A DNA stretch of 20,531 nt from a virus: IMG/VR virus record IMGVR_UViG_3300031566_000464, positions 1-20,531 of that record, one strand, 5' to 3'. The notes under the pieces were generated by a model, which was not told the origin of the DNA, did no database searches, and saw nothing but the letters and a program-made list of their open reading frames with translations. This document shows, in pieces, positions 826 to 17,712 of this stretch; positions within the stretch are counted from its first letter, which is position 1, and every line of letters starts with the position of its first letter. The position numbers and the translations under genes are program-made.

Positions 826-1419
826 TTAATTACTCGTATTATGGATGCTACCCGTTGTTATTAAGCCCGTTTTGCCGTCTACTACAACCTCATCACCAAG
901 ACGTGCAATAGCCGCCCCTCCAGTGCCAAAATTAAATGTGCCGTTACCATTAAATATTCCGCTCGTACTAAAACCGAAAGAAAAACTTCCGCTTGTGAAA
1001 TTCATGGCAGGAGCTGTTACATTAAACGTTTGTGCCGTCATGTCTATATCTGTTACTGTACTGACAATTAATTTGCCTTTACAGGTTATTTCAATATCAC
1101 CATTTTCTAAAAATTTTATATAACTACCAGAGACAGGACTGCCAAAAATAACTTCCCCAGATTTTAAATTTTTAAATCTATCTTGTTGCGAATAAGGCAT
1201 AACCGCCAAATTGGCTTCGTTGCCGCATACGGTAAACGCTAATCCGATATTATCAACAGGCGCAACGGCGCTCATCCCATAGGGATAAATACATTCAGCC
1301 GCTGCAATCTTTGATAGATAAGTAACTTGGCAGTGAGAAATAGGTTTCTCATCTTTACTAATTGCCGTTATAACTACACGTTTTATATAGTTAGTTATTT
1401 TATTTGCTAAATGTTTCAT
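826..1419 (-). CDS. Mu gp45-like baseplate spike protein (gpV-like)
   Basis: A 197-residue protein of the Mu gp45 family, the trimeric spike at the tip of the tail tube that pierces the outer membrane. The N-terminal half (to about residue 110) is the OB-fold-like part, with a typical VDNIGLAFTVCGNEANLAV stretch and SGEVIFGSPVSGSYIKFLENGDIEI split around residues 85-112. The C-terminal third is rich in G, N, T, S and F with short beta repeats (FNGNGTFNFGTGGAAIARLGD), as expected for a spike beta-helix. The start ATG at 1419 overlaps the upstream stop in an ATGA motif, which supports coupled translation and this start. An outer-membrane-piercing spike fits a Gram-negative host. Confidence 0.87.
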   Translation of the reverse strand: MKHLANKITNYIKRVVITAISKDEKPISHCQVTYLSKIAAAECIYPYGMSAVAPVDNIGLAFTVCGNEANLAVMPYSQQDRFKNLKSGEVIFGSPVSGSYIKFLENGDIEITCKGKLIVSTVTDIDMTAQTFNVTAPAMNFTSGSFSFGFSTSGIFNGNGTFNFGTGGAAIARLGDEVVVDGKTGLITTGSIHNTSN

Positions 1420-2603
1420 ATGCCTTTATAAGGAGTTAGATTGCTTATAATTCCGCCGTTAACATCCTCTCCTGATGCTTTTTTCTTTTTGCGGTTTCTG
1501 TATTTTATGCCTTGCAATGTTTCTACAGAATAGCCTTCTTTGTCTATCAATTCTAATGTTGTCATGCTTCCTCCAGCAATTGAATAATTAAACTCAACGG
1601 ACTTAATCAATAATAATTGCTTTGGTATATTGCAGTAATCATCATTTACTAATATCAATTGGTTTGGCTGCCAAATTCGCGCAGGATCGTTTATCGGCGA
1701 AAAACCTTGAACTGTAACCGTATATTTAAATCCTGTCGCGCGGTTATAGTTTGCCTGCGATGTAGCGCGTTCTTGTAAATCAGCCTGACTGTTGTAAGAA
1801 TCATCATGTGTCATTAAATTAAAAACTCGCGTATGTCTTATCGCTTCGTCGTAAGCAGTAGCGGAAACCGAAACAATCTTGTCATTACTTATCGCGTGAA
1901 CATCTTCCACGATCCCGTTACTAACAACATTACTTTGTGATTTCATCGCGTATCTATAAAACCTTTTTGTATCATCATATATTGCCACGGCACTTAAAAT
2001 AACAGCTTGATAACCAGGACTTGACGTTAAAACAGTATTTAATCTTTCGTCGTCTTTTGGTGTGCGCGCTAATAAAATATTACCATCGCCATCGGACATC
2101 AACAAAACTTGTCTTTTTTTGGCAAATTTTTCAATAAACAAATATGCTGACTCGCCAATTTGTGCCGACATGTTATTTAATTCTGTGTTATCAAAAACAT
2201 CTAGTTTAGCATTACTATTAACGGCTATTTCATTTTCTAAGCCAAAATTCTTCAATACTTTTCTAATAATATTTTCTAAACTAATGCCCGCGCTAAAAGA
2301 CAATTCACTGCCAAGTGTGTTGTCTATAATGTCGCATGTTTTATCTCGACCCCCAATGGTTATTTGATGCTGTTTTGAATCATAATTGATGCCTATAGTT
2401 TCAACATATCCTGTAATAAAGGCTTTCCCGTTAACTAGCACCCTGCATTTACTTCTATTTTGTATTGGGAATTTTTGTAAATTATCCAACACTGAAATAT
2501 TAAAACTAAAGCTGCCGCTAATATGCTCCATGGATTTACTAGCCGTCGCACTAGTAAATCCACTATAAGGGACGCCATTTATTTCCAATGCAATGTCGTT
2601 CAT
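1416..2603 (-). CDS. Mu gpP (gp44)-like baseplate hub protein
   Basis: A 395-residue protein of the Mu P / gp44 family, related to P2 gpD and T4 gp27, which form the trimeric baseplate hub under the tail tube. The N-terminus (NDIALEINGVPYSGF) and the segment with GYVETIGINYDSKQHQITI and GGRDKTCDIIDNT are typical of the first barrel domain. A second region around residues 110-200 includes a long helix and LMSDGDGNILLAR. The C-terminus is basic (RNRKKKKASGED). It starts with ATGA overlapping the upstream stop and is followed by the gp45-like spike gene with the same overlap. Order N-P-45 equals that of Mu. Length is near the family norm. Confidence 0.87.
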   Translation of the reverse strand: MNDIALEINGVPYSGFTSATASKSMEHISGSFSFNISVLDNLQKFPIQNRSKCRVLVNGKAFITGYVETIGINYDSKQHQITIGGRDKTCDIIDNTLGSELSFSAGISLENIIRKVLKNFGLENEIAVNSNAKLDVFDNTELNNMSAQIGESAYLFIEKFAKKRQVLLMSDGDGNILLARTPKDDERLNTVLTSSPGYQAVILSAVAIYDDTKRFYRYAMKSQSNVVSNGIVEDVHAISNDKIVSVSATAYDEAIRHTRVFNLMTHDDSYNSQADLQERATSQANYNRATGFKYTVTVQGFSPINDPARIWQPNQLILVNDDYCNIPKQLLLIKSVEFNYSIAGGSMTTLELIDKEGYSVETLQGIKYRNRKKKKASGEDVNGGIISNLTPYKGI

Positions 2604-3790
2604 TGCGTTGCTTCCGTTAAAATTTTAATATCCCCGCTAATTTGAGTGACGTTATTTAAATCGTTTAGCGCTATTACCTCGTCTTCATTTTCAAAATCAG
2701 CATAATACCTATACAATAGAACAGATAAGGGCGTCACAGGCACGTTAACAGTAATGACTTTACTTACATTCACTTTTAATTGACTAAAAAATCTTTTCAC
2801 AGTGTTGCGTAACTTTTCTAATTGCCTCAAAATATCGATGTCAAGCACATTATTATTCATCAAATATTGGTACTTAGTCTCTAGATCGACTTCTTTTTCC
2901 ATAATTTGCAAATCGTCTAAATACGTTATTTGTAGCGCGTTAGAATATAACGTCATCAATAAAACTGTGTTCACATAACAATTCAAGATTTTTCTATTTA
3001 AAATTCTTTGGCTACGTTCCGCAGTCGTGTCTTTTATTATTATATCGTCGGCGCCAAAATAATATGCCGTAGAATTAAGTGCATAACTATCTTCAGCTGA
3101 TAACCCTAAATTATTATACGCATCTAACAAATCTACAATTGAAGCCGAAAAACTTGCACTATCTTGCAATGACACATATCGATTAACTTCAAAATCTGCG
3201 CTTTTCGATGTAAAATCGTTTAAAGCATTATCCTCGGTAGCTACAGCGCGCGTTGGTTGTAGCGAGCTATTTAATTTTTGGCTCTTACTCGAAGCATCTG
3301 CTATATTGTGTTTAAAACTAAGTGCAAATTTGGTAACGAAAAAAGCAGTTAAATAAGGGGCTATCTCATTAATAATACTATCGACAAAAGAACCGCCCGC
3401 ATCTCCAAACACAGGGAAAAGATTTTGTCTCGCCTCTTCAAATGTAATGCTAAAAACACACTCGCCTAAAGACGTTAAATTTTCTGTGACTGTATATGTT
3501 TTTACAGTGACAAGCACAAGCCCATATAAAGGATGCGTCAACACTCCTATTCCTTTCTTTTGCAATGCTAAGATAAAAACTTCTCGCAAAACTAAGTAAT
3601 CGTCATTACCAGTAATTATAGCGTCAACATCAAACGTTCTTAAATTTTCGCCCAAATCTTCTACGAAACGATATTGTTTGTTGGGGTATTCGAAAGTCTG
3701 CGTCTTTCTTCCGTAATGCATCGTGCTTGTATCCACAAGAAATGGCACCCCGTTAAAAGTTGCTGTAAATAGCTGGTTAAGTAATGCCAT
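2600..3790 (-). CDS. Mu gpN-like DNA circularisation / tail protein
   Basis: A 396-residue protein whose first about 120 residues match the DNA circularisation N-terminal domain (Mu gpN family). It has FNGVPFLVDTSTMHYGRK, then EYPNKQYRFVEDLGENLR, a TGNDDYLVLREVF stretch, and GIGVLTHPLYGLV followed by a strand and FSITFEEAR. The family name comes from an old Mu phenotype. Structurally these proteins are baseplate or tail-tip components, equivalent to the distal tail ring around the hub. The remainder is helical and poorly conserved. The start ATG shares one base with the tape measure stop (TGATG), so the two are translationally coupled. The downstream neighbour is the hub gene. Confidence 0.85.
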   Translation of the reverse strand: MALLNQLFTATFNGVPFLVDTSTMHYGRKTQTFEYPNKQYRFVEDLGENLRTFDVDAIITGNDDYLVLREVFILALQKKGIGVLTHPLYGLVLVTVKTYTVTENLTSLGECVFSITFEEARQNLFPVFGDAGGSFVDSIINEIAPYLTAFFVTKFALSFKHNIADASSKSQKLNSSLQPTRAVATEDNALNDFTSKSADFEVNRYVSLQDSASFSASIVDLLDAYNNLGLSAEDSYALNSTAYYFGADDIIIKDTTAERSQRILNRKILNCYVNTVLLMTLYSNALQITYLDDLQIMEKEVDLETKYQYLMNNNVLDIDILRQLEKLRNTVKRFFSQLKVNVSKVITVNVPVTPLSVLLYRYYADFENEDEVIALNDLNNVTQISGDIKILTEATQ

Positions 3791-5145
3791 CAGTAAGACC
3801 CCATGGTTGTTCTTCCTAATTCAGACTTAACAGCAAGTGGTATGCTCCCAACCATATTGCCCTCATGCATCAATCGAATTAAACTAGGAGCCGACACAAC
3901 GGAGCTTATTTGTTGTGCTCCAGCTGACGGGTTAAACCCTAATAAGCTTGCTCCTGAAGAAATAGTGCCTGGCTGCGCTGTCCCTGCAGATTCACCAAGC
4001 GCCGATAACGCCCCGCCCACAGTCTTCCACCCTACTTTCGTTTCTCCCCCTCCAAATTGTTTTAATGCGGTCAGCATGCTTTGATTAAATGATGAAAAGT
4101 CCACCCCTTTCGCGCCTTCCCACATCGCAAGCACTGCAAGGATTGGTCCTGAGGCTCTTGCCATTGCGCCAAAATAACCAGCTAAAAGACCAAAACCCCA
4201 AGTAATAGTTTTAAGAACTGATGCTATTGATATCAAAGCCGCCCCAATAAGTCCTATATTTACCGCCATTTTAAACACTTCTGGATTAGCTTCTAACCAA
4301 GCTTTTATTTTAGGCTCCAATTCAGCCAATCTATCCGCTATGCCTTTCATCCCGCCTTCAATGCCGTAAACTTTAAATAACGCATCGCCGAAGTCCGCCG
4401 CGATAAAACGTAAAGCATTATGCACTCGATCTGCAGACGTGCCTGTGGTCATTAACATTTTTCTATAAGATTCATAAAAATCGCTTCCCTTTTTTGTCAT
4501 ACTGTCAAGAACAGGTTCTATTAATTTAAAATCAAGCTTTTTTGATGTTAAATTATTCCATGCCTTATCGCTTAAATGATAATATTCTTTAAAAGCTTTA
4601 ACTAACGGGATGCCTTGTTGTGACATTCTAGCCATGAAACGCCCCTGCGCATATCCGACCGTTTTCATTCGGATAAGTCCTGATGCGATTTCAGTTATAT
4701 CTCTACCAGAACCCACCGCTAACACAGACATTTGCTTTAACTTTTCGTTTATTTTGTCCATCCCATAACCAGCCGCTAACAGTTTTGTTGCTGTCTGGTT
4801 TAATCCTTCAGGTGACAATCCTGTAGACAATGACATCTCTTTAACACTAGCCATAACCTTCGCCGCATTTTTAGCAGAACCTGCGACGGATTCTAACCTT
4901 ATTTGCATCGTTTTGAATTGCTCGGAATTTTTTAAGGCATAAGTAGCCGCAGCAGCCATTGGCAAAACCAATCCTTTGAATAAAATTTTACCCGTTTTTT
5001 GCACAGTGTCGCTAAACTTTTTAACGTTGTCGGCGCTCTTTTTCATTTGAACTTCAAACTTTTCCATAGAAGCGCTAATTTTTTTCACCGCAGGCGAAAA
5101 ATTATCAATCGCTTTGAAAATGTAGGCTAGATCATAAGTGCTCAT
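3790..5145 (-). CDS. Tail tape measure protein (short)
   Basis: A 451-residue protein in the position of Mu gp42. Residues 1-60 are Lys/Ser-rich coil (VKKISASMEKFEVQMKKSAD). Residues 60-260 carry the usual tape measure pattern, including SEQFKTMQIRLESVAGSAKN and a STGLSPEGLNQTATKLLAAG stretch. Residues about 290-345 hold hydrophobic segments likely to be membrane-active when released. The C-terminus is Gly/Ser-rich. It acts as the scaffold and ruler of the tail and is ejected during DNA entry. It is short: by the known rule of about 0.15 nm per residue, a tail near 70 nm is expected. The start overlaps the stop of the -1 frame of the chaperone gene as ATGA, a strong coupling signal. Confidence 0.88.
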   Translation of the reverse strand: MSTYDLAYIFKAIDNFSPAVKKISASMEKFEVQMKKSADNVKKFSDTVQKTGKILFKGLVLPMAAAATYALKNSEQFKTMQIRLESVAGSAKNAAKVMASVKEMSLSTGLSPEGLNQTATKLLAAGYGMDKINEKLKQMSVLAVGSGRDITEIASGLIRMKTVGYAQGRFMARMSQQGIPLVKAFKEYYHLSDKAWNNLTSKKLDFKLIEPVLDSMTKKGSDFYESYRKMLMTTGTSADRVHNALRFIAADFGDALFKVYGIEGGMKGIADRLAELEPKIKAWLEANPEVFKMAVNIGLIGAALISIASVLKTITWGFGLLAGYFGAMARASGPILAVLAMWEGAKGVDFSSFNQSMLTALKQFGGGETKVGWKTVGGALSALGESAGTAQPGTISSGASLLGFNPSAGAQQISSVVSAPSLIRLMHEGNMVGSIPLAVKSELGRTTMGSY

Positions 5146-5339
5146 CGATTAATCGCCTTTTTTTGCTCCGCAGTTGCTTCTTTATTTATTCGTTCTGCAT
5201 TACGTTTTAGATTAATAAATTCTACAATAGGCATTTCTTGAAAATCTTTATATGTAACAGCACCTTTATAAAAAACCATCAAATTTGAAGCTAAAAAATT
5301 TAGTTCTTCTTCTTTGATTGCAACATAATTGATGGTAAT
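5142..5339 (-). CDS. -1 frameshift extension of tail assembly chaperone (GT-type)
   Basis: In the -1 frame relative to the chaperone gene, an ORF of 65 codons without its own good start runs from the slippery site to a TGA at 5144-5142. Its sequence starts ITINYVAIKEEELNFLASNL and includes MVFYKGAVTYKDFQEMP and a basic helix LKRNAERINKEATAEQKK. The product, about 209 residues in total, would be 144 residues of the zero frame followed by these 65. Contractile and lambda-like phages make such an extended chaperone (lambda G/GT; Mu 41/41') to recruit the tape measure during tail assembly. The stop overlaps the tape measure ATG as ATGA, which strongly suggests that this frame is translated. The frameshift itself is inferred. 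Confidence 0.85.
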   Translation of the reverse strand: MTINYVAIKEEELNFLASNLMVFYKGAVTYKDFQEMPIVEFINLKRNAERINKEATAEQKKAINR

Positions 5340-5770
5340 AAAAAATTTGCGATATAATCTCCAAGCAATCGCAATGTTTCACGTGAATCTAAAGCGTTAA
5401 ACAAGTCTAAAGTTAAAGCCTCCTTGCCGTCAATCAGACAAATATTATCAGACAAAATTAAATCCTGAAAGACCTCTACAAATTCCGCCATTTGCTCAGG
5501 TGCAAGCGAGCCTGAAATAAGCATATAAATGCTCGCGCCATCTATAATATCATCTTGCGACTCTACGTCTTTCTTTGACGTGTCTTCTTTGTAATTTTCT
5601 CTAGCTTTTATCAAAGACGACATTACCGTTGAGCTTAATTTACTAGATAAAGAAAGCAATCGAGTTGTTGGCGCTCGTAATAATAGCCGCTTTGCTTTAA
5701 TACCAGCCTTGCCGTCATGGGCATAAATCAAATCATCTTGCAAAATAAAATCAAACTCTTTTTTTAGCAT
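5300..5770 (-). CDS. Tail assembly chaperone (Mu gp41-like, G-type short form)
   Basis: A 156-residue protein between the tail tube and tape measure genes, where all long-tailed phages encode the tail assembly chaperone. It begins MLKKEFDFILQDDLIYAHDG and has a helical middle (LLSLSSKLSSTVMSSLIKAR), an acidic strand region, and DGKEALTLDLFNALDSRETL. I rely on position, length and the frameshift site in its last codons for the call, more than on a clear domain motif. Normal termination gives the short form. A slip at codon 144 gives the long form described separately. The chaperone is expected to coat the tape measure protein and not to enter the virion. Confidence 0.82.
   Translation of the reverse strand: MLKKEFDFILQDDLIYAHDGKAGIKAKRLLLRAPTTRLLSLSSKLSSTVMSSLIKARENYKEDTSKKDVESQDDIIDGASIYMLISGSLAPEQMAEFVEVFQDLILSDNICLIDGKEALTLDLFNALDSRETLRLLGDYIANFLLPSIMLQSKKKN
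5339..5345 (-). promoter_or_regulatory. Slippery heptamer for -1 frameshift (U UUU UUA)
   Basis: The minus strand reads T TTT TTA in phase with the chaperone codons (AAT TTT TTA), a perfect X XXY YYZ heptamer. It is identical to the HIV-1 gag-pol slip site. It is preceded directly by A AAT TTT, another permitted slip heptamer. A GGAG at 5362-5359 lies 13 nt upstream, similar to the internal Shine-Dalgarno that stimulates the dnaX frameshift in E. coli. I did not establish a downstream hairpin or pseudoknot. Confidence 0.85.
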
Positions 5771-5791
5771 TTTTATTTTCCGATTAAAAAA

Positions 5792-6178
5792 TTAAACTAA
5801 CGAATCGCATTGGAACTCAACACTTATCATGCCATCAATGCCAGTCTCGACTTCGTATTTGTTCACAATTCCTGCATCTGAACCATACCTAGTAAATTCC
5901 GCATCTGTGATACTTATGGCGTTATCAAAGTCATTGTTGACCCAAGTGCGTGCCAATTCAACATTTGCAACAGTGTTAAGTAATTGAAATTTAACCTCTG
6001 AAAACTGCGTTGTCACGTCTATCGACGACACCCTCTGCATAGAACCTCCGCCGCCCGTTTGAGTCCTAACTTTTTTTTCTGGCGTTCCTTCTGTAAAAGT
6101 TAGTGATCCCGCAATGTATGGGACTAAAACATTATTTATCATTAAAAATGGAGTGGACAAACTTTTTATATTAGTCAT
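5792..6178 (-). CDS. Tail tube protein (Mu gpM-like)
   Basis: A 128-residue protein directly after the sheath gene, matching the Mu M (gp40) tail tube family in length and pattern. It has an N-terminal strand with SLTFTEGTPEKKVRTQTGGG, a beta-rich core (DVTTQFSEVKFQLLNTVANV), and a C-terminal strand ending GMISVEFQCDSLV. It forms the inner tube through which DNA passes. A strong ribosome binding site (AAAGAGGT) lies about 8 nt before the ATG, in keeping with the high copy number of the protein. Confidence 0.88.
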   Translation of the reverse strand: MTNIKSLSTPFLMINNVLVPYIAGSLTFTEGTPEKKVRTQTGGGGSMQRVSSIDVTTQFSEVKFQLLNTVANVELARTWVNNDFDNAISITDAEFTRYGSDAGIVNKYEVETGIDGMISVEFQCDSLV

Positions 6179-10792: not shown

Positions 10793-10882
10793 TTAAGCCA
10801 CTTCTGCGATTAGTGGATAGACAACGATAGGCGCAGGAACATACGACTGCATCCCCTGCGTTATTAATGCTAAAGGATTCAT
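10793..10882 (-). CDS. 29-residue micro-ORF between fibre-like and neck genes
   Basis: A 29-codon ORF fills the gap between the fibre-like gene and the beta-rich protein. It starts MNPLALITQGMQSYVPAP and ends with a hydrophobic VVYPLIAEVA tail. Three facts support translation: its ATG overlaps the upstream stop as ATGA, its TAA lies 1 bp before the next start, and no other frame uses this stretch. Small proteins beginning 'MNPLALATQG'-like are, from memory, a recurring item in this position of other phage head-tail modules. The function is unknown. It is too short for most gene callers. Confidence 0.6.
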   Translation of the reverse strand: MNPLALITQGMQSYVPAPIVVYPLIAEVA

Positions 10883-12063
10883 AGTTTCACCGTTTTATAT
10901 GTTAATACTTTTCCAGCCGTTTCTGTTGCTGTCATGTTATACGTAGCAATCACATCGTTATCTGTCCCAACACTTGCAGGATCACTATAAAGTCTAACTC
11001 TGCCTGAGGTTAAAACATTACTCGCAGAATAAATTGGTTGGTCGATATAAACATTATCATATAAAGAGTGGATACGCGCTTCACTTAATGCCTCCCCTGT
11101 CGATCCTACGATTAAATGATCCGCCAAAACCGTATCCCAAATTTCGGTAGCGATTGTAGTTTCAGATAATAAATTAAATACGCCCTTATCTGCCACGCGA
11201 GATTGGATATTATCGCCGCTAAAATTCATTTTATCTGTTTGAGTTTTAATTAGCGCACTTGTCGCCTCTAAAGCTGCAACGCTGGCTAAAGCGCTTAAAG
11301 TAGTTTCTTTTGCAACTGTAGCATCTAGTGCCGCCACTCCTGCTAACGCGCTTAAAGTAGTTTCTTTTGCAACTGTAGCATCTAATGCCGCAACGCTGGC
11401 TAACGCGCTTAAAGTAGTTTCTTTTGCGACTGTAGCGTCTTTTGCAACTGTAGAATCTAGTGCCGCCACTCCTGCCAGTGCGCTTAAAGTAGTTTCTTTT
11501 GCAACTGTAGAATCTAGTGCCGCCACTCCTGCCAATGCGCTTAAAGTAGTTTCTTTTGCAACTGTAGAATCTAGTGCCGCCACTCCTGCTAACGCGCTTA
11601 AAGTAGTTTCTTTTGCAACCGTAGCGTCTTTTGCAACCGTAGCATCTAGTGCCGCCGCTCCTGCCAATGCGCTTAAAGTAGTTTCTTTTGCAACTGTAGC
11701 GTCTTTTGCAACCGTAGCGTCTTTTGCAACCGTAGCGTCTTTTGCAACCGTAGCGTCTTTTGCAACCGTAGCATCTAGCGCCACTACTCCTGACAATATT
11801 GCTAACGCTTCTAAAGACGCTACTTTGTCAAGCACGATATTTACAATTTGGCCACTTCCTGCAATGACAACAGTTTCCACTTTCCCAACGAACCCAGGAA
11901 CTTCAGCTGTGGGATAAAATGTAGCAAGACTCGTGTATGTATAAACAAATGGGCTATTTTCAATCGATACAGACCCGATACCGTCACGAGGATCAAACGT
12001 AATAGAATGCAACGCATTTGCACTAGAATCTTTAACATTAAACGTTGTTACATAATCAACCAT
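10879..12063 (-). CDS. Fibre-like structural protein with two-block repeats
   Basis: A 394-residue protein in three parts. Residues 1-94 are a beta-rich head. Residues 97-265 are a pure repeat array of a 6-residue block (DATVAK or DSTVAK, 13 copies) and a 13-residue block (ETTLSALAGVAAL and variants, 7 copies). Residues 270-394 hold a conserved-looking EIWDTVLADHLIVGSTGEAL segment, known from many phage fibre or appendage proteins, followed by a beta domain. The arrangement suggests an elongated, probably trimeric appendage on head or neck. Location between capsid and connector genes favours a head or neck fibre over a tail fibre. A clear ribosome binding site (AGAGGCGGG) precedes the ATG. 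The stop overlaps the micro-ORF start. Confidence 0.65.
   Translation of the reverse strand: MVDYVTTFNVKDSSANALHSITFDPRDGIGSVSIENSPFVYTYTSLATFYPTAEVPGFVGKVETVVIAGSGQIVNIVLDKVASLEALAILSGVVALDATVAKDATVAKDATVAKDATVAKDATVAKETTLSALAGAAALDATVAKDATVAKETTLSALAGVAALDSTVAKETTLSALAGVAALDSTVAKETTLSALAGVAALDSTVAKDATVAKETTLSALASVAALDATVAKETTLSALAGVAALDATVAKETTLSALASVAALEATSALIKTQTDKMNFSGDNIQSRVADKGVFNLLSETTIATEIWDTVLADHLIVGSTGEALSEARIHSLYDNVYIDQPIYSASNVLTSGRVRLYSDPASVGTDNDVIATYNMTATETAGKVLTYKTVKL
11263..11781 (-). repeat. In-frame mosaic of 18-bp and 39-bp coding repeats
   Basis: The DNA coding for residues 95-267 of the fibre-like protein is made of an 18-bp unit and a 39-bp unit, most often joined as a 57-bp pair. 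At 11699-11770 four 18-bp units are identical and contiguous. Elsewhere copies differ by only a few bases. All units are multiples of three, so gain or loss of copies keeps the reading frame. The near identity of copies indicates recent expansion or homogenisation. Confidence 0.92.
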
Positions 12064-14517: not shown

Positions 14518-15282
14518 TCACAATTTGGTAAGTAGGGTTTTTAATTCATGCAAATGAATTAAATTATTTTTTTCTTTTGTATCGGTTGGGACATCAGACT
14601 CACTCCGCGCCTTTTCGATGAAACGCGCGGCTAAGAAAATAGCCGCTTCTTTTGAAAACGCTCCTGACTCTCTCAAGATGTTTTCATAATCTTTTTTAGT
14701 AAATAAAATACTTTTTAAATCTGTTACATTATAAAATTTTTGCTTCGCTGCATGCTTAACTTCGGTCACATTCGCATCTTCATTTGCAGGCTCTCCAACG
14801 ATTGAGACTTCCCAGAGTTTTAATTTTTTTAAGCACCGCTCTTCTCGCGTATATGTAGACCCCTCTTCCTCTACAGTAAAACTAATTGACATGTCGCTTA
14901 ACACTCCCTGCTTAGCCAATTCATAAACATCATTACCAAGCTGCACTTTAGTATTAATATCAATTGCAACCAACAGCCCCTTTTTATCGCTGTTAAGATT
15001 TTCAGGCCTTATGCCTCCAATCGGCACGTTAAAAGTGTCATGCTGGTAATAAACTTTTAACATACGATTTTGATTTTTATAATCTTGTATAGAACCGTCA
15101 AATGCGCCTTCTAAAATCACGTCATTCACGCGATCAACGTTTCCGTAAGTCGCCGCATACCCTTTTATGATGCCTATTCCTTTATTATCATAAAGACTGG
15201 CTTTAGTTTCTTGTATAGAAAATGGAAAAATTTTATATTCCATTTTTTCTATTTTGGTCGGGCTCTCGGGAGAATGAGGCAT
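14518..15282 (-). CDS. Prohead protease (HK97 gp4-like, peptidase S78)
   Basis: A 254-residue serine protease that cleaves the capsid delta domain and itself during prohead maturation. Family marks are GYAATYGNVDRVNDVILEGA, the catalytic histidine in VYYQHD (H81) followed by VPIGGI, the probable nucleophile in GVLSDMSISF (S132), and WEVSIVGEPANEDANVTEV. The start at 15282 has a GGA about 8 nt upstream. Met15 is an alternative, because the conserved part begins after it. It lies next to the capsid gene as in HK97. Upstream is the divergent regulatory gap and the inserted plus-strand cassette, which separates it from the portal and minor head genes. Confidence 0.93.
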   Translation of the reverse strand: MPHSPESPTKIEKMEYKIFPFSIQETKASLYDNKGIGIIKGYAATYGNVDRVNDVILEGAFDGSIQDYKNQNRMLKVYYQHDTFNVPIGGIRPENLNSDKKGLLVAIDINTKVQLGNDVYELAKQGVLSDMSISFTVEEEGSTYTREERCLKKLKLWEVSIVGEPANEDANVTEVKHAAKQKFYNVTDLKSILFTKKDYENILRESGAFSKEAAIFLAARFIEKARSESDVPTDTKEKNNLIHLHELKTLLTKL

Positions 15283-15315
15283 AAAAATTTTCCAAAAGTA
15301 GTTAAAAAGAGTTAT

Positions 15316-15346
15316 ATAATCAATCTAGCAGGAAGGGATTGATTAT
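15316..15346. repeat. Inverted repeat, 10-bp perfect arms
   Basis: ATAATCAATC at 15316-15325 and GATTGATTAT at 15337-15346 are perfect inverted arms around an 11-bp spacer. The second arm overlaps the next inverted repeat. AT-rich arms and the place between two divergent genes suggest an operator more than a terminator. Confidence 0.75.
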
Positions 15347-15372
15347 GCAATAAAAAAATCATTGCATATCAA
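15342..15372 (-). promoter_or_regulatory. Weak candidate minus-strand promoter before the protease gene
   Basis: TTGATA (15372-15367) and CATAAT (15347-15342) each match the sigma70 consensus at five of six positions, but the spacer is 19 bp, longer than ideal. It could drive protease, capsid and downstream genes independently of transcription from the terminase side. Both inverted repeats overlap it. I hold this loosely. Confidence 0.25.
15344..15368. repeat. Inverted repeat, 8-bp perfect arms
   Basis: TATGCAAT at 15344-15351 and ATTGCATA at 15361-15368 form a perfect dyad with a 9-bp A-rich centre. It lies in the divergent gap and covers the possible minus-strand promoter. A protein-binding site is the likely role; the ligand is unknown. 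Confidence 0.7.
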
Positions 15373-15394
15373 GTAGTTAGGGTGTACGTTAAAG

Positions 15395-15443
15395 TGTTTT
15401 ACCGTGCGTTAATACTCGTTGACATGTTTTAATGCGCGTAATA
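15395..15443 (+). repeat. Imperfect direct repeats, 30 bp apart, at the cassette promoter
   Basis: TGTTTTA followed by CCGTGCGTTAATA (15395-15414) recurs as TGTTTTA followed by ATGCGCGTAATA (15425-15443). The second copy fills the -35/-10 spacer. The 30-bp distance is close to three helical turns, so a bound protein would sit on the same DNA face. This is the layout of tandem operators. Confidence 0.55.
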
Positions 15444-15447
15444 AAAT
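15419..15447 (+). promoter_or_regulatory. Sigma70 promoter of the plus-strand cassette
   Basis: A perfect -35 box TTGACA (15419-15424), a 17-bp spacer and TAAAAT (15442-15447, five of six) form a near-consensus promoter reading into the helix-turn-helix gene. Transcription would start near 15454. AAGAGG at 15468-15473 lies 14 nt before the ATG, a rather long spacing for a ribosome binding site. It makes the cassette independent of late transcription, which runs the other way. Confidence 0.8.
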
Positions 15448-15487
15448 AAGAGCAAGTCTTAAAATTTAAGAGGAAACTAAAACGAAA

Positions 15488-15691
15488 ATGAAAAAAAAGA
15501 CTGAAACTGAAACAATAACATTTACAATCAATGAATTCTGCAAACACTACGGCTTCTGTCGTGCTACTTACTACAGATTAAGAAAAGAGAGCAACTTGCC
15601 GCCAATAAGAAAAATTGACAGGAAATGTTTTATCAAAATAGAAGACGCAAAAATTTGGTTTGAAAAACTTAGAACAGAGTTTGATAAATAA
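15488..15691 (+). CDS. Small helix-turn-helix DNA-binding protein (AlpA/excisionase-like)
   Basis: A 67-residue protein with a winged helix-turn-helix of the AlpA/MerR-like type. Residues 13-32 give the helix-turn-helix (INEFCKHYGFCRATYYRLRK). Residues 38-50 form the wing with PPIRKIDRKCFI, then the typical IEDAKIWFEKL helix. Proteins of this kind act as small transcription factors or excisionases. It is the first gene of the plus-strand cassette and sits right behind repeats that could be its own operators, so autoregulation is plausible. An excisionase role is less likely because no integrase is in the window. The start is the only ATG downstream of the promoter in this frame. Confidence 0.75.
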   Translation: MKKKTETETITFTINEFCKHYGFCRATYYRLRKESNLPPIRKIDRKCFIKIEDAKIWFEKLRTEFDK

Positions 15692-15705
15692 CAGGAAGAA
15701 AACTT

Positions 15706-16236
15706 ATGCCCGAAAATAACGAAACAAACAGAGTCGATTTAACTACATACTTTTGTTGCCTATCTTGCGGATCAATTTACTCTAAAGATAAAGCCATTCA
15801 CACACCAGTCAGTTTCCAATGTTTAAAAAACATGACAGATGGAAACTTTAAGTTTGAATTGCGTTACTGCCCTAATTGCATCTACGGTCTAGCACATTAT
15901 ATCGCATGCCAAATTTTAGGGGCCTGGAGTTCCGATTCTAACTCCCATATTATAACCGATCTAATAGATGAATTACGGCATACAGACAGCATACATCCTA
16001 TTCTAAGACAAAAAATTGATGGCTGTCTTAAGCAGTTGAATTACATGCCACAGGGCTCGAAAATGAAACAAGCTCCAAGCACAATCGAAGAAGTAATACA
16101 ACGTATCGATGAAAAAAAGCAGGAAAACAAAGAAAAAACAATTAAAAAAAATAAATTTTCGGTAAGCCATTGGTTAGTATATATGTTTCGTAGAACTATT
16201 AAATCGGGGCAGAGAAAGAATTACAGAAATTTATAG
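15706..16236 (+). CDS. CxxC...CxxC zinc-ribbon-like protein, unknown function
   Basis: A 176-residue protein of no family I recognise. C18-LS-C21 and C55-PN-C58 form two CxxC pairs 33 residues apart, a probable zinc site, with aromatic residues around them (YFCCLSCGSIY and ELRYCPNCIYGLAHY). A helical middle (ITDLIDELRH) follows, then a charged Lys/Glu coil at about 125-150 and a basic C-terminus. GGAAG lies about 8 nt before the ATG. The last about 15 residues are coded by a 34-bp stretch that is an exact copy of the 3' part of the following ligase gene, read in another frame, so the C-terminus is of recent, foreign origin. Function cannot be stated. Confidence 0.65.
   Translation: MPENNETNRVDLTTYFCCLSCGSIYSKDKAIHTPVSFQCLKNMTDGNFKFELRYCPNCIYGLAHYIACQILGAWSSDSNSHIITDLIDELRHTDSIHPILRQKIDGCLKQLNYMPQGSKMKQAPSTIEEVIQRIDEKKQENKEKTIKKNKFSVSHWLVYMFRRTIKSGQRKNYRNL
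16190..16223 (+). repeat. 34-bp perfect direct repeat, copy 1
   Basis: The 34 bp starting GTAGAACTATTAAATCGG are identical to 16803-16836. This copy lies in the last codons of the zinc-ribbon-like gene, where it is read as codons from R162 on (RTIKSGQRKN). It lies 613 bp from copy 2. Confidence 0.97.
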
Positions 16237-16244
16237 GCTATAAA

Positions 16245-16868
16245 ATGATCAAATACCCAAAAATACACACCATTTTTAGAAGAGATGAAGAGACTCACAA
16301 ACTAATTTCAAACGAATACTCCGCCCCTGAATTTGAATTTTTAGCCAATAATATTTGGCAAATGAGCGAAAAAATAGACGGCACAAATATCAGAGTTGCG
16401 TGGGATCATGAAACTAAAAGAGTAACGTTTGGCGGCAGAACTGATAACGCGCAAATCCAAAACCTGCTACTAAACAGACTGCGAGAAATTTTTAACATAG
16501 AAATATTATCGATTTTATACCCTGACGTTTCTATTTTATTTTTTGGCGAGGGCTATGGATATAAGATTCAAACCGGCGAAAAATACAAAGCAAACGGCAA
16601 CGACTTCATTTTATTCGATGTGCTAGTAGGCAAATGGTGGTTAAAAAGAGAATCCGTAGACAGCACCGCAAAAAATTTAAATACCCACTCTGTTCCAATA
16701 ATCAAAGAAGGAAATTTGGCGCAAGCTATAGAGCTGGCTAGAAATGGATTCAACTCTATTTTCGGAAATTTTATTGCAGAAGGCATTGTTATACGCCCAA
16801 AAGTAGAACTATTAAATCGGGGCAGAGAAAGAATTATCGCAAAATTGAAATATAGTGACTTTAAATAG
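16245..16868 (+). CDS. RNA ligase (covalent nucleotidyltransferase family, compact)
   Basis: A 207-residue RNA ligase of the T4 Rnl2-like / RNA_ligase Pfam group. All core motifs are visible: motif I EKIDGTN with the AMP-accepting K43, GGRTDNAQI around R65, motif III FFGEGYGYKIQTG with E102, motif IIIa FILFDVLVG, motif IV AEGIVIRP with E179, and motif V IIAKLKYSDF with K200 and K202. The enzyme would seal RNA ends with ATP through an enzyme-AMP intermediate. It lacks the C-terminal domain of larger ligases, as many phage members do, and no polynucleotide kinase partner is in the window. Its last 8 bp overlap the end of the minus-strand minor head gene. RNA repair against host anticodon nucleases is a possible role, by analogy with T4. 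Confidence 0.87.
   Translation: MIKYPKIHTIFRRDEETHKLISNEYSAPEFEFLANNIWQMSEKIDGTNIRVAWDHETKRVTFGGRTDNAQIQNLLLNRLREIFNIEILSILYPDVSILFFGEGYGYKIQTGEKYKANGNDFILFDVLVGKWWLKRESVDSTAKNLNTHSVPIIKEGNLAQAIELARNGFNSIFGNFIAEGIVIRPKVELLNRGRERIIAKLKYSDFK
16803..16836 (+). repeat. 34-bp perfect direct repeat, copy 2
   Basis: This is the second copy of the 34-bp sequence at 16190-16223. Here it is read in the ligase frame from V187 (VELLNRGRERI), just before motif V. Conserved ligase sequence in this copy suggests that it is the original, and copy 1 the derived one. Confidence 0.97.
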
Positions 16869-17712
16869 GTTTACGCATTTTCCATTCCCAATTTTCTATA
16901 GATTCGCAACGACAACCCATCAGATTTTCATCGCTAGCCCCTAAACTATCGTCGCGCGGCTCCATTAATTCTTCCCCGTCAACAATATATGGCTGATCAT
17001 AATCCACGGTCTGCCCATCAGCCGACCTATGCCACGGTCTTGTTTGGGAATCTAATATCGCAATCCATGTCTTTTGTGTCTTATAATCAGCTAAAGAAGT
17101 ACCGTCATCAAATTCTGCGTCTGTATCATCTAAGGCGTCAATTTCGTTTGCTTTACCATCGTCAGCCGCAACACCCGTCTCCATCTGCGATATTAAATCC
17201 AATCTATCCTCTATTGTGTCTTCAAAATCATCACTTATATCATCCGCAATATTTTCTTTTGATAACACCGCCCCAGCTACTGCAGCCGCCGCTATCGACA
17301 TCTTAATTGCGTCCTTATAATTATCTTTTGTCGTGCCAGAAATTGAATCCGCCGCGAAATCGCTACGATCATCTGCATCAACTTCTATGTTTGCGTCGAT
17401 CAAAGATTGCAATCTTTCGTCGTCTGGAATTGGTTTAAAATTATCACGAATTGTTGTTGATGCCAAAGTAGCAGTATCAATATAATGCGCATTTATAATG
17501 CTTTTGACTGCGTTTCTATGCGGTTCAAACGAAGGCAGTTTGCCGTTATTACTATAATATTTTTTTACTCCTTTCCCTAACTGCTTAAAATGTGGTCGCA
17601 GATCCTCCTTTAACTTTTTTTCTCGTTTGAATTTAAATGCTAGGATAGAAGCGGCTGCCGCTTGTTTTTCTTTACTGCTTTTATTATGCGTGGTTCGATT
17701 ATTCGAGTCCAT
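16861..17712 (-). CDS. Minor head protein (Mu F / SPP1 gp7-like)
   Basis: A 283-residue protein whose C-terminus carries the Mu F-like motif: KTWIAILDSQTRPWHRSADG (W216, D221, R225, H228, G233), then DQPYIVDG, EPRDDSLGASDEN and the final GCRCES (CRC at 267-269). The N-terminal 50 residues are a basic helix, and the middle is acidic and helical. Proteins of this family bind the portal inside the procapsid, and a few are ejected with DNA. The gene overlaps the portal gene by 14 bp, as usual. The family 'ARTE'-like region before the motif is degenerate here. Its 3' end overlaps the oppositely oriented ligase gene by 8 bp. Confidence 0.85.
   Translation of the reverse strand: MDSNNRTTHNKSSKEKQAAAASILAFKFKREKKLKEDLRPHFKQLGKGVKKYYSNNGKLPSFEPHRNAVKSIINAHYIDTATLASTTIRDNFKPIPDDERLQSLIDANIEVDADDRSDFAADSISGTTKDNYKDAIKMSIAAAAVAGAVLSKENIADDISDDFEDTIEDRLDLISQMETGVAADDGKANEIDALDDTDAEFDDGTSLADYKTQKTWIAILDSQTRPWHRSADGQTVDYDQPYIVDGEELMEPRDDSLGASDENLMGCRCESIENWEWKMRKPI

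Follow-up and report, generated by a model that had tools for sequence, protein, structure and literature searches.

A 34-bp direct repeat of ligase-gene origin in a moron-like locus of an uncultured tailed phage

The window, that is, the whole 20.5 kb stretch of DNA analysed here, is a fragment of an uncultured tailed phage represented by an IMG/VR metagenome contig. Nearly all of its genes lie on the minus strand and specify head and tail functions, including the terminase, portal, Mu F-like head protein, prohead protease, capsid and tail proteins. Between the start of the prohead protease gene at 15282 and the end of the Mu F-like gene at 16861 lies a trio of genes on the plus strand. The slot occupied by this trio is bordered on the left by the protease (Peptidase_S78; 14518..15282, minus strand) and on the right by the Mu F-like head morphogenesis protein (16861..17712, minus strand). 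The first gene of the trio (15488..15691, plus strand) codes for an HTH_17/excisionase-like DNA-binding protein, which is retained in the related contigs L103 and L104, the second (15706..16236, plus strand) for a zinc-ribbon-like protein with two CxxC pairs, and the third for an RNA ligase. Upstream of the trio we noted a promoter-like site, TTGACA-17-TAAAAT (15419..15447, plus strand), which agrees with the consensus at 11 of 12 positions; the number of promoter-like matches in the region is not above that in shuffled sequences, and a similar site, TTGACG-17-TAAAAT, is found upstream of the HTH gene of L103. Words resembling CGTTAA/GCGTTAAT recur in the segment 15390-15450, just upstream of the HTH gene, and could possibly be operator sites; GAGCGTTAACGAG is likewise present upstream of the HTH gene of L103. 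No terminator-like site was detected in 15200-16960. The G+C content of the trio (0.33-0.36) is within the range of the remaining window, and the skew alone differs, as expected from its location on the opposite strand. Searches with models of defence systems recovered no meaningful match, the single weak hit (E 0.003) being to the HTH gene, and searches for a host found none, the portal relatives in genomes being distant (26% identity). Elsewhere in the window, the gene at 10879-12063 contains an imperfect array at 11198-11800 with units of 18, 57 and 75 bp (ATVAKDATVAKETTLSALAG repeats), of which a further relative, L014, has a shorter version.

The third gene of the trio (16245..16868, plus strand) is a predicted Rnl2-like RNA ligase of 207 aa. 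It matched PF09414 (E 4e-17; 63.4 bits against a cut-off of 27), phrog_548 (E 3.6e-23) and, in profile comparisons, the structures of T4 RNA ligase 2, while an alignment with five phage ligases revealed the nucleotidyltransferase motifs I, III, IV and V as EKIDGTN, FGEGYG, EGIVIRP and KLKYSDF, respectively. In these motifs, in its catalytic-domain length and in its many phage homologues it resembles the phage Rnl2-type ligases; however, it does not possess the C-terminal domain of T4 Rnl2, and it does not reach the cut-offs of the two NCBIfam equivalogs, Rnl2 and DRB0094. The same slot of L014 contains a different Rnl2-type ligase of 290 aa with a C-terminal extension (2596-3468, minus strand). 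The window ligase shows 46-53% identity to ligases of unrelated phages, as against 27% to that of the L014 slot, indicating that the two were probably acquired separately.

Positions 16190-16223 and 16803-16836 of the window, as the original prediction had stated, are identical, forming a perfect direct repeat of exactly 34 bp. We found mismatches immediately outside it on both sides (C/A at 16189/16802 and C/T at 16224/16837). No third copy was found in the window with up to 3 mismatches. In 60 surrogates generated with a first-order Markov model of the window without its tandem array, the longest exact direct repeat had a mean of 14.5 bp and a maximum of 17 bp, and hence the 34-bp repeat is not a product of chance. 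An identical arrangement is seen in the IMG/VR contig IMGVR_UViG_3300031539_000667 (L004), where 12,251 bases align to the window with a single mismatch (99.99%). Similarity does not extend significantly past the edges of the repeat: an anchored extension was matched by 67 of 300 shuffles on the right and by all 300 on the left. A longer homology, tempting by eye on account of an ATTTTCGG octamer upstream and TATAG downstream, was likewise not significant against shuffles. The repeat has no hairpin potential beyond that of shuffled sequences (z 0.64). Of 91 phage loci (727 kb of related and ligase-bearing loci), about ten, or approximately one in nine, contained an exact dispersed repeat of at least 30 bp, defined as two copies separated by 200 bp or more, several of these repeats being duplicated genes or parts of tandem arrays; this shows that a repeat of such size is no rarity among phages.

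Both copies lie on the plus strand and are read one base out of phase with each other, in the frames originally proposed, while stops interrupt the remaining frame. The copy within the ligase gene (R2; 16803..16836) encodes VELLNRGRERI directly before motif V. In our alignments this stretch is conserved across more than 80 phage Rnl2-like ligases, where it typically takes the form VEL..R.G.RIITKIK. The upstream copy (R1; 16190..16223) encodes the RTIKSGQRKN(Y) of the C-terminus of the zinc-ribbon-like protein, whose final 15 residues are supplied by R1 and the bases following it. Given that R2 belongs to the conserved sequence of the ligase family and that R1 is out of the ligase phase, the repeat DNA came from the ligase gene, with R2 as the source copy and R1 as the derived one. 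Thus the sequence comparisons support copying in the direction from the ligase to the upstream zinc-ribbon-like gene.

Further evidence comes from a homologue of the zinc-ribbon-like protein in L104, which is encoded in the same slot beside the Mu F-like gene; the gene that comes next there is a different, small zinc gene, and there is no ligase. In BLASTP comparisons this homologue aligns with residues 11-161 of the window protein at 31% identity, and residue 161 corresponds to the last codon before R1. Past the aligned part it has its own unrelated seven-residue tail, WIKTTKL. The termination of the alignment before R1, along with the family-wide conservation of R2, supports the earlier proposals that the tail of the window protein is foreign and that ligase DNA was copied into the upstream gene; homologues sharing the same tail without a ligase neighbour would have spoken against them, and the one in L104 ends differently. 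At this level of identity a single known homologue does not fix how the window protein natively ended, and the BLAST alignment may end near residue 161 for other reasons. When R1 alone is removed in silico, the protein has PEIYRL as a tail of six residues, and its stop falls a single base ahead of the ligase gene. This layout is close to that of L104, where the stop of the homologue overlaps the next start; the agreement in tail length between PEIYRL and the L104 protein is weak evidence. No further homologues were recovered from annotated phages or from bacterial and archaeal genomes, and a two-sequence profile drew in none beyond L104 from viral contigs.

Comparison with relatives established that the slot is variable. 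In L103 the HTH gene stands alone between the Mu F-like and protease genes. In L104 it is accompanied by several further genes, the zinc genes among them; in L009 an HTH gene is found with unrelated genes, and the slot of L014 combines an HTH gene with several more genes and a different ligase. None of these four slots contains the repeat, the best matches having 12-15 mismatches out of 34. The slot turns over by whole genes, and the repeat, as far as these sequences indicate, is not needed for such turnover. We also observed that in L104 (IMGVR_UViG_3300020045_015507) the segment 1-1185, bearing the HTH-protease end, is inverted with respect to 1186-4440, bearing the cassette-MuF end, unlike in all relatives; its protease is slightly shortened, and the contig is either chimeric or bears a real inversion. 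In L009 (IMGVR_UViG_3300036715_002741) the terminase ORF (3504-5990; 828 aa) has what by eye resembles an intein-like insert, with no match to an intein in Pfam; an ORF for an HNH_3 endonuclease (5195-5860; E 1.3e-9) lies wholly within it in a different frame, both being open.

Morons, as defined in PMC4378225, or regions of genomic plasticity, are known from phage genomes, for example those of Mu-like Pseudomonas phages. The slot resembles them (PMC4378225) in having accessory genes inserted between conserved neighbours that are otherwise adjacent in relatives, in the variation of these genes from one relative to another, in their location on the opposite strand and, possibly, in the promoter-like site. 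It differs in having several genes under one putative promoter, in the retention of the HTH gene, and in the lack of a detected terminator or a clear G+C shift. The locus is moron-like, and we do not classify it as a moron because no terminator of its own was found.

We consider it probable, with some room for doubt, that 34 bp of the acquired ligase were copied upstream as a one-off templated insertion into this moron-like slot, and the best reading of the duplication is a recent event of illegitimate recombination. The phage group would have possessed a slot between the head-morphogenesis and prohead-protease genes with oppositely transcribed accessory genes, headed by the small HTH regulator. 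In the lineage of the window, an Rnl2-like ligase would have been horizontally acquired as the last gene of the slot, behind the zinc-ribbon gene. On or after its arrival, 34 bp from its 3' coding part would have been copied 613 bp upstream into the 3' end of the zinc-ribbon gene, either by illegitimate recombination or by template switching of a polymerase, and the insertion would have shifted the frame and provided the zinc-ribbon-like protein with a new 15-residue tail. Short templated insertions and ectopic duplications arise by template switching or illegitimate recombination, and the repeat resembles them in being a short, exact duplicate of a neighbouring sequence, placed at a new junction, that alters the frame and the C-terminus. 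The sharp edges of the repeat, with no significant similarity outside them, favour this reading, in which the event would be a pure insertion rather than a replacement. However, many template-switch events show microhomology at their edges, and there is none at the edges of R1 under a pure insertion, which counts against templated insertion; furthermore, unlike known templated insertions, this one is seen in a single lineage, so that there is no ancestor for direct comparison. Published work on phages dealing with templated insertions or with deletions at direct repeats offered nothing directly usable.

The main rival to templated insertion is a partial tandem duplication, in which a segment from just upstream of the ligase to 16836 would have been duplicated. 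A later deletion would have taken most of the first copy together with the original end of the zinc-ribbon gene, leaving 34 bp fused to that gene. Such a history yields the same anatomy as observed, the stretch that separates R1 from the ligase start would be the native leader of the ligase, and no junction contradicts it. Nevertheless, it invokes two events where one suffices, and neither flank of R1 has any other detectable trace of a ligase; we regard it as a serious but unlikely alternative.

The original prediction had also viewed the ligase as a removable cassette. Regular recombination between the copies, with loss of the ligase and both forms held in the population, would be permitted by the geometry, as the 34 identical bp are 613 bp apart and both neighbouring genes would be open after the deletion; the predicted single-copy product, with 613 bp lost and a tail ending in ...NYRKIEI, is right, and ligase-less relatives do exist. 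However, a search for the single-copy, ligase-less version recovered none from 2.9 million viral contigs, and both known contigs have two copies. The ligase-less relatives are free of the repeat altogether and differ by whole genes, other phage ligases show no such flanking repeat (one 16-bp and one 15-bp match in 86 loci, without recurrence), and recombination between the copies would be a one-way loss rather than a switch. The cassette view was not supported: the copies could in principle recombine, but nothing shows that they do or that this is selected, and a population holding both forms is very improbable. It is, if anything, slightly less probable still that the repeat is a maintained deletion switch, by which phage populations would shed the RNA ligase through recombination between the copies and keep a working upstream gene whose tail is altered, and the repeat probably has no function at present.

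An assembly artefact is comparably improbable. The window is a metagenome contig, and short exact repeats can cause misjoins, but both genes are open and properly spaced, and the presence of the same arrangement in the near-identical L004 makes an assembly slip unlikely, although the two assemblies may not be fully independent. Least credible of all is a site-specific recombination site (att or attC-like) for gene entry into the slot: the repeat does recur at the ends of two successive genes like the attC sites of integron cassettes, but it lies inside coding sequence conserved across the ligase family, is missing from the slots of the four relatives and lacks the attC-like hairpin, and no recombinase was recognised in the window, so that we rejected an integron-type gene cassette.

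The repeat is a real but ordinary genomic scar, most probably left by illegitimate recombination, in a locus that resembles a moron. It provides a small, well-bounded case of a phage gene gaining its tail from the DNA of a neighbour, read in another frame, amidst the turnover of genes in a slot. The out-of-frame reuse of this DNA as a C-terminus is a neat detail that adds no new principle and leaves the accepted picture unchanged. The broader point is that the window phage and its relative L014 have probably each received an RNA ligase of a different kind in this slot, independently of one another.
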